Source: Pantoea endophytica (GTDB taxonomy: Bacteria > Pseudomonadota > Gammaproteobacteria > Enterobacterales > Enterobacteriaceae). Taken from it: 64,000 bases of DNA. Each line of letters opens with the position of its first letter. Position 1 is the stretch's first letter. The notes beneath the pieces are model-generated. The model worked only from the letters and a program-made list of their open reading frames with translations. It did no database searches and had not been told where the DNA came from. Where the stretch lies: assembly GCF_002858935.1 (NCBI RefSeq), contig NZ_PJRT01000031.1, forward strand, positions 1 to 64,000, given 5' to 3'. Positions 51,882 through 53,087 of the stretch are shown in pieces. Both the position numbers and the translations under genes were made by a program.

Positions 51882-52250
51882 ATGGATGATGAAGACTACG
51901 GATTAAATACACTGATCGACATGGATGGATATCGATTTACTTATGAGAGCGGATATTGGTGGAAAATTGAGGTTCGTAAAGAAGCACCGTCGAAGTTCAG
52001 GCCGCATGGCATAAGGTACAATCTTACCTTCCATAACAATTACAACACCCGCATCTTCGGCATAGATAACGCTCATGCCATTAAGCCGCCGAAGAGAGGT
52101 TTTTCAGGTAAATGGACGGTTTATGACCATTTGCATAAAACCTCTGTTGATTCTGGGCAGCCCTATTTCTTTGTTTCGGCCAGCCAACTGCTCGAAGACT
52201 TTCTGGAAAATGTAGACAAAATCATTGGTGAAAAAGAGGGTAAATCATGA
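51882..52250 (+). CDS. TumE-family toxin (DUF6516)
   Basis: The 122-residue protein resembles the TumE/DUF6516 toxin family. The core is YWWKIEVRKEAP, then a HGIRYNLTFHN strand, then RIFGIDNAHAIKPPK near residue 57-71 and the WTVYDHLHKT segment. No membrane helix or signal is present. The biochemical action of TumE toxins is not something I can state with confidence. It overlaps the downstream antitoxin by four bases (ATGA). Base composition is more AT-rich than the flanking hem genes, which suggests acquisition. No strong ribosome site precedes the ATG. Confidence 0.72.
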   Translation: MDDEDYGLNTLIDMDGYRFTYESGYWWKIEVRKEAPSKFRPHGIRYNLTFHNNYNTRIFGIDNAHAIKPPKRGFSGKWTVYDHLHKTSVDSGQPYFFVSASQLLEDFLENVDKIIGEKEGKS

Positions 52251-52624
52251 AAGCGCTCATCGGCATTATTTCTCCAGAGAATATGCGTAATCGAATAATG
52301 AGCATTGCGAGTGGGCAGTACAAACCTGAGGCTGATGAACCCAAAGTTTGGTTTGCGTCCGTGAACGCGATTGCGCAGGTGCTTAGCAATGAGAACATCC
52401 TACTTCTCAAGCTTATGCACGAGCGCAAACCTCAGACCGTTACAGAGCTGGCGGAGCTTTCGGGACGTCGAGTCAGTAATCTGTCTGCGACGCTGAAAAC
52501 GTTGGAAGGTCACGGCTTTGTGAGCCTGAAGAAGATAGGCAAAAAAAAAATTCCTACCGCACTTTTCACTGAGTTCGATATACGCGTGACCAGTGAACTC
52601 ATCGCAAAACCCGAAGCGGCTTAA
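52247..52624 (+). CDS. TumA-type antitoxin, HVO_A0114-like winged helix
   Basis: The 125-residue protein has a MarR/HVO_A0114-type winged helix: NENILLLKLMHERKPQTVTELAELSGRRVSNLSATLKTLEGHGFVSLKK covers residues about 50-98. The recognition helix is near GRRVSNLSATLKTLE. The N-terminal 45 residues are probably the toxin-contacting part. An AGAGGG site within the 3' end of tumE precedes the ATG. The gene order, toxin before antitoxin, is that of TumE-TumA pairs. The assignment rests on both partners together. Confidence 0.72.
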   Translation: MKALIGIISPENMRNRIMSIASGQYKPEADEPKVWFASVNAIAQVLSNENILLLKLMHERKPQTVTELAELSGRRVSNLSATLKTLEGHGFVSLKKIGKKKIPTALFTEFDIRVTSELIAKPEAA

Positions 52625-52673
52625 CTGAACCTTGCGTTCCGAAGCCGAATCTACCCTTCGCCATATTACAGAC

Positions 52674-52873
52674 AAAAAAACACCTGCCATAAGCAGGTGT
52701 AAGATCAGGTCGTTAAGACAACTGATGGCATCCGACTCAACGTAATGTCCTTCTTACTGCAGTAAAGCGTGCGCAAATACTGCCAGGCTGGACAACGGAT
52801 GCCGTAAGGGGCTCTGCATCATTCCCAGGTTTATGTAGCATCAGCAAACATAAGAGGTGGAATGAGCATCTAC
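52674..52873 (-). ncRNA. glmZ: small RNA GlmZ
   Basis: The minus-strand RNA starts GTAGATGCTCATTCC, the same as the 5' end of E. coli GlmZ as I recall it, and continues CTCTTATGTT before diverging. It ends about 200 bases later in a terminator hairpin (ACACCTGC/GCAGGTGT with seven T). E. coli GlmZ is 207 bases and also lies beside hemY. GlmZ with Hfq activates glmS translation, and RapZ with RNase E cleaves it unless GlmY titrates RapZ. The likely glmS-pairing region is the single-stranded part holding GTTGTC near base 170. Confidence 0.9.
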
Positions 52874-52882
52874 AGGTAGATT

Positions 52883-52902
52883 ATTGCACAAGACGTGCCA
52901 AA
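52883..52902 (-). promoter_or_regulatory. sigma-54 promoter of glmZ
   Basis: The minus strand reads TTGGCACGTCTTGTGCAAT, with the invariant GG and GC ten bases apart. With +1 at 52873 they fall at about -25/-26 and -13/-14. This matches the sigma-54 consensus TGGCACG-N4-TTGCA well. No convincing sigma-70 promoter overlaps it. Confidence 0.82.
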
Positions 52903-52974
52903 GTTGCAGCACGTGCAATAAGCTAATTAATATCAACAGGATATAGTCCCTGCCACAATCCCGGTGTTAGCCAC

Positions 52975-52992
52975 TGTCGGTAAAACGCGACG
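52975..52992. promoter_or_regulatory. GlrR-type activator box 1
   Basis: TGTC-N10-GACG matches the GlrR (QseF) box TGTC-N10-GACA at seven of eight bases, 102-119 bases upstream of the glmZ start. Confidence 0.6.
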
Positions 52993-53006
52993 ATCATTCA
53001 ATAAGC

Positions 53007-53024
53007 TGTCTCCGCAGAACGACA
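53007..53024. promoter_or_regulatory. GlrR-type activator box 2
   Basis: TGTC-N10-GACA, a perfect match, 134-151 bases upstream of the glmZ start. It is 32 bases from box 1, close to three helical turns. Confidence 0.72.
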
Positions 53025-53069
53025 AGCTATGCAAGGAATTGTCATGCCCATATAAATCAATGATTTATA

Positions 53070-53087
53070 TGTATCTAAATAGCGACA
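53070..53087. promoter_or_regulatory. GlrR-type activator box 3
   Basis: TGTA-N10-GACA, seven of eight matches, 197-214 bases upstream of the glmZ start and 63 bases from box 2, about six helical turns. Confidence 0.6.

Follow-up and report, generated by a model that had tools for sequence, protein, structure and literature searches.

The glmZ promoter of a Pantoea genome: GlrR-type sigma-54 elements, a candidate overlapping sigma-70 promoter and a displaced third box

Which RNA polymerase holoenzyme transcribes the small RNA gene glmZ in Pantoea: that with sigma-54, that with sigma-70, or both? Transcription of glmZ in E. coli K-12 depends on sigma-70 only. For the Pantoea DNA analyzed here (a stretch of 64,000 nucleotides, referred to as the window), the original prediction described an apparently exclusive sigma-54 promoter of the GlrR type. 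The analysis presented below favours a dual reading: glmZ probably has the known sigma-54/GlrR control region together with an overlapping sigma-70 promoter rather than instead of one.

The glmZ gene, its surroundings and its target

An Rfam covariance search with the GlmZ model (RF00083) gave a clear match on the minus strand of the window at 52873..52674, with 122.5 bits against a cut-off of 60 and an E-value of 2.4e-29. The match covers the full length of the model (positions 1–214), and the RNA starts with GTAGATG. Thus, the gene and its start, which had been proposed before this search, are borne out by it, and the case of no match at 52674–52873 did not arise. The following features were assigned:

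52674..52873, minus strand: glmZ small RNA gene (RF00083, 122.5 bits)
52680..52700, minus strand: putative intrinsic terminator of glmZ, a 9-pair stem followed by a T run
52706..52722, minus strand: stretch of GlmZ predicted to pair with the glmS leader (duplex of −24.5 kcal/mol)

The genome is 5.11 Mb in size and its WecG shares 99% identity with that of Pantoea sp. SOD02. One flank of glmZ contains hemC, hemD, hemX and hemY and a two-gene insert, while the other contains four tRNA genes and wecG; the hem and wec names were assigned by reading the ORFs. An ORF at 52690..52400 (minus strand) overlaps the 3' end of glmZ. Between hemY and glmZ, two overlapping small genes are located on the plus strand (51882–52250 and 52247–52624). 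The product of the second was attributed to winged-helix proteins of the HVO_A0114 family (67.1 bits), and the product of the first had no match in Pfam or NCBIfam. The layout of the pair suggests a toxin-antitoxin system, and no relatives were found at an E-value of 1e-5 in 80 neighbouring loci, some of them incomplete.

Pairing of GlmZ with the glmS leader was estimated from predicted duplexes. The calculation with the whole leader was uninformative, as 26 of 300 shuffles were as good in Pantoea and 196 of 300 in E. coli. A narrower test was chosen after this result, on a stretch of GlmZ picked as the known glmS-pairing region. With the glmS leader of its own genome this stretch gave −24.5 kcal/mol in Pantoea and −19.0 kcal/mol in E. 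coli, and neither value was equalled in 500 shuffles. The crosswise duplexes had energies of −17.9 kcal/mol for Pantoea GlmZ with the E. coli leader (equalled by 4 of 500 shuffles) and −26.1 kcal/mol for E. coli GlmZ with the Pantoea leader (0 of 500). The predicted pairing is therefore sound, yet these crosswise energies do not indicate clean co-variation.

The sigma-54 control region

The original prediction placed a −24/−12 element and three TGTC-N10-GACA-like boxes, one of them perfect, upstream of glmZ. All of them were recovered, and an IHF-like site was found in addition:

52885..52900, minus strand: putative sigma-54 element TGGCACGTCTTGTGCA, −27 to −12 from the GTAGATG start, 11/12 consensus positions
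52975..52992, minus strand: GlrR-type box 3, CGTC-N10-GACA, at −119, 7/8 (the displaced third box, 32 bp closer to the promoter than box 2)
53007..53024, minus strand: GlrR-type box 2, TGTC-N10-GACA, at −151, perfect (8/8)
53055..53067, minus strand: putative IHF-like site TAAATCATTGATT, two bases past box 1 in the interval to box 2
53070..53087, minus strand: GlrR-type box 1, TGTC-N10-TACA, at −214, 7/8

Motif counts alone were considered as evidence and dropped, because neither the boxes nor the sigma-54 motifs exceed their controls. The window matches TGGCAYRNNNNKTGCW exactly at two places, of which TGGCACGTCTTGTGCA is one; if one mismatch is allowed, 6 occurrences were found against 8.5 expected, so that alone this motif is not above chance. 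No excess was found for GlrR-type boxes with at most one mismatch in the window (15 against 21.2 expected) or for perfect boxes in the genome (39 per strand against 57 for a reversed-pattern control). When two boxes had to be spaced by 63 bp and to have no more than two mismatches, however, two places were found in 5.1 Mb, namely glmZ (one mismatch) and glmY (two). At three mismatches there were 21 further places, and the reversed-pattern control gave 22 at up to three, so only the tight matches are meaningful. It is the arrangement of the boxes at glmZ, not the single motifs, that is above chance.

This arrangement is widely conserved. The box pair (at least 13/16) was kept in 39/40 Erwiniaceae loci, 12/12 comparison loci outside Erwiniaceae and 73/83 survey rows. 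In the sigma-54 element, GG..GC is kept in nearly all Erwiniaceae columns, and none of 46 Erwiniaceae loci varies at the core positions T-27 to A-23 and T-15 to C-13. The putative IHF site TAAATCATTGATT matches the IHF consensus exactly. With up to one mismatch allowed, an IHF-like site was located two bases past the distal box in 35/39 Erwiniaceae, 61/73 survey and 10/12 comparison loci outside Erwiniaceae, compared with 2.7, 7.5 and 1.1 matches, respectively, anywhere in shuffled inter-box sequences.

Several further features of the region were noted. The IHF-like site is spanned by a perfect 23-base palindrome, CATATAAATCATTGATTTATATG (53049–53071), of which the IHF part is kept in aligned close relatives and the palindrome is not. 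An inverted repeat, TTATTGCAC / GTGCAATAA (52882–52922), flanks the sigma-54 element, its right arm covering the −12 bases, and is absent from the aligned relatives. Immediately ahead of box 2, TTCCTTGCA (53025–53045) is strongly conserved in aligned close Pantoea relatives, not in Salmonella. A fixed helical phase between the box pair and the start was also considered: the survey rows showed no 10.5-bp periodicity (R 0.08, n = 73), and the value for Erwiniaceae loci (R 0.57, n = 39) is not claimed as a signal, with 0.62 reached near a period of 12.5.

The genes of the expected partners are present in the genome, including rpoN (85% identity) and rapZ (95%). The order glmY, glrK (69%), qseG (53%), glrR (84%), glnB (92%) is that of E. 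coli, and the expectation that glmY with GlrR-type boxes would lie beside glrK was confirmed. GlrR exceeds the cut-off of the NCBIfam GlrR equivalog (917.6 bits against 763), keeps GAFTGA and is identical to the E. coli protein at 19 of its last 21 aligned residues. The glmY promoter, served by sigma-54, GlrR and IHF, has boxes, an IHF-like site and a sigma-54 element in common with the window glmZ, both in E. coli and in this genome. The two differ in that the third box is located upstream of the 63-bp pair at glmY and downstream of it at glmZ.

Sigma-54 alone or together with sigma-70

To place the window in context, we searched 246 genomes of the family with RF00083, of which 152 gave a match, and scored 98 glmZ loci (96 fetched loci, the window and E. 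coli). The survey comprised 83 rows (82 genera and E. coli), and 77 rows (76 genera and E. coli) were outside the Erwiniaceae clade. At glmZ, a predicted sigma-54 element is the rule and E. coli an exception, since an element of at least 9/12 was kept in 67/77 rows outside the clade and the box pair was missing in only 10/83 survey rows, E. coli among them. Published work on three species, as relayed by papers that cite it, reportedly agrees with this. The nine other loci without the pair are L115, L116, L130, L134, L136, L145, L147, L160 and L173, and one of these nine genera may be that of E. coli itself. The sigma-54 GG..GC is also missing in six of them (g14, g22, g69, g97, g152 and g155), which keep an ATAAT −10. 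Sigma-54 control of glmZ may have been lost more than once.

The bases of the −12 element in the window overlap a further candidate element:

52880..52888, minus strand: candidate extended −10 element TGC-AATAAT, −15 to −7, which shares its TGC with the sigma-54 −12 element

It consists of TG plus 5/6 hexamer matches and is identical in two Salmonella loci, L091 (diarizonae) and L106 (arizonae). Salmonella glmZ has the same RNA, a near-identical sigma-54 element and the same 63-bp spacing of the box pair; the third box differs, scoring 7/8 on the near side in the window and only 5/8 to 6/8, on either side, in the Salmonella loci. According to the available part of PMC3844500, the sigma-70 promoter of S. 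Typhimurium glmZ fully overlaps the sigma-54 promoter, and the 18 promoter bases given there agree as far as they are printed. The same source states that an rpoN mutant had increased glmZ transcription and that the activity of a glmZ reporter without rpoN was equal to or above that with rpoN. The boxes and the sigma-54 element therefore do not in themselves show rpoN dependence, as S. Typhimurium glmZ stays active without rpoN. E. coli K-12 glmZ belongs to the same RNA family and also has an extended −10 (TGG-CATAAT); unlike the window, it has neither a sigma-54 element nor boxes of 6/8 or better. As far as PMC4585118 was available, glmZ of Y. pseudotuberculosis has a promoter for sigma-54 only, with GlrR and putative IHF sites; control by sigma-54, GlrR and IHF is likewise predicted for the window, while the reported absence of sigma-70 differs from the dual reading favoured here, a comparison based on the published description. 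Control of glmZ by GlrR, sigma-54 and IHF, as proposed here, is of a published kind. In the accessible literature, GlmZ of P. ananatis has already been detected and quantified, and its start mapped by 5' RACE.

Three bases of the candidate −10 are conserved beyond their surroundings: over 46 Erwiniaceae loci, conservation is 96% at each of A-11, A-9 and T-7, against 35–65% at −6 to −1. Sigma-54 itself seems not to need A-11 and T-7, because each is present in only 42/67 of the sigma-54-bearing rows outside the Erwiniaceae clade. We favour reading this conservation, which is weaker than it appears because related species are non-independent, as selection for a sigma-70 −10.

If sigma-54 and GlrR alone drove glmZ, in the style of Y. 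pseudotuberculosis, AATAAT would be a coincidence of AT-rich DNA. We consider this rather unlikely, although the sigma-54 element and the boxes are complete, such exclusive control does exist in that species (PMC4585118, as far as available), and no −35 box is visible and no sigma-70 promoter was found in a two-hexamer scan of the window glmZ promoter. That scan cannot decide the question, because it also misses glmZ of E. coli and of Salmonella. The extended −10 equal to that of the Salmonella loci and the conservation at −11, −9 and −7 in Erwiniaceae argue against exclusive control, as does an ad hoc sigma-70 score of 8.3, the same as for E. coli glmZ (8.3); this score may fail to separate dual from exclusive promoters, since Rahnella, of a family near Yersinia, reaches 8.5. 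The claim of an apparently exclusive sigma-54 promoter is thus unsupported. The opposite possibility, namely that glmZ is transcribed almost wholly with sigma-70 and that the sigma-54/GlrR elements are a relic decaying toward the E. coli state, would fit the loss of GG..GC and the box pair with a retained ATAAT −10 in E. coli and six further genera, and also the unlowered glmZ transcription of S. Typhimurium after rpoN loss (PMC3844500, available in part). It is highly improbable, given the invariant sigma-54 core (T-27 to A-23, T-15 to C-13) of 46 Erwiniaceae loci and the box pair kept in 39/40, unlike in decay.

All these characteristics allow us to assume, with a probability of roughly 0.7, that Pantoea glmZ has a dual promoter, in which a GlrR/IHF-activated sigma-54 promoter is combined with an overlapping sigma-70 promoter, with the third box of Erwiniaceae on the near side. 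In such a promoter, phosphorylated GlrR would bind the boxes, IHF would bend the DNA between the outer two boxes (the 63-bp pair), and the GlrR activator would open the sigma-54 polymerase. The sigma-70 polymerase could provide a basal level of glmZ from the same start and compete for the site. GlmZ would pair with the glmS leader, and RapZ and GlmY would regulate it further, as in E. coli. The original prediction knew two types, sigma-70 in E. coli and sigma-54 in others; this scheme omits the dual type, which the window promoter resembles most. Its suggestion that the amount of GlmZ follows GlrKR can be expected to apply only in part, since RapZ-dependent decay also sets that amount (PMC6075780, as far as available). 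A reading of "sigma-54 instead of sigma-70" is corrected by the fact that the TGC of a −12 element can also serve as the first three bases of an extended −10, and the shared TGC would provide a short path from sigma-54 through a dual state to the sigma-70-only state of E. coli.

Position of the third GlrR-type box

The third box was called at 7/8 or better and 31–33 bp from the pair, either on the far side (UP) or on the promoter side (DOWN). Among Erwiniaceae glmZ loci with the pair, 27 were DOWN, none was UP and 12 had neither (n = 39); in these 12, the downstream box scored 6/8 in eight and lower in four. Further loci of the window's genus gave 12 DOWN and 4 neither (n = 16). The comparison loci outside Erwiniaceae were 8 UP, 0 DOWN and 4 neither (n = 12), and the survey rows were 37 UP, 2 DOWN and 34 neither (n = 73). 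At glmY, the third box was located 33 bp upstream of the pair in 10/10 Pantoea loci examined, out of 18 genomes with a glmY match. Hence, by box scores, the putative third box is on the near side (about −119) and not on the far side (about −246) in glmZ of Erwiniaceae, and not in the glmY loci examined.

In a WecG tree of 28 rows, both DOWN survey genera were placed inside the Erwiniaceae clade (support 96/99). All 37 UP genera were added deliberately to a larger tree of 140 rows, in which the clade node had a support of only 0.63. Inside the clade, 30 rows were DOWN and 0 UP, while 16 had neither box, 17 lacked data and 1 lacked the pair. Outside it, 0 were DOWN and 45 UP, 11 had neither box, 17 lacked data and 3 lacked the pair. 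The in-clade genera g33, g77 and g81 have neither third box. Most simply, glmZ would have acquired the site near −119 and lost that near −246, once each, before most Erwiniaceae diverged. An inverted box module was rejected as a cause, because the IHF-like site has the same orientation in both layouts and lies two bases past the distal box in each.

The −119 box could also be a chance resemblance, glmZ of Erwiniaceae having simply lost the third site. The box is imperfect in the window (7/8) and below 7/8 in 12 of the 39 Erwiniaceae loci with the pair, and other lineages also do without it, 34/73 survey rows having neither box at 7/8. This explanation is nevertheless unlikely: at exactly +95 from the distal box, the mean score in the 39 loci is 5.4/8 (31–33 bp spacing allowed) against a background of 1.9 (sd 0.5, maximum 3.2), and no upstream box of 7/8 was found in any of them.

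In the available text of PMC6749038, PMC4211561, PMC6075780 and PMC4585118, the third-box layout is not described, and the displaced box may be new, as a modest variant. It can be proposed, very tentatively, that in the Erwiniaceae ancestor glmZ had its third GlrR site shifted to the promoter side while glmY stayed unchanged, so that one signal from phosphorylated GlrR would drive the decoy RNA, GlmY, and its client, GlmZ, with a different dose-response or timing. Comparing glmY with glmZ in one genome, and Erwiniaceae with the rest, offers a natural way of asking whether a looping sigma-54 activator is sensitive to the side of the third site. Near-side boxes that score weakly also exist outside Erwiniaceae. 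L106 (S. arizonae) and L121 have boxes of 6/8 on both sides, L127 has one on the near side alone, and L117 has one there beside a perfect far box.
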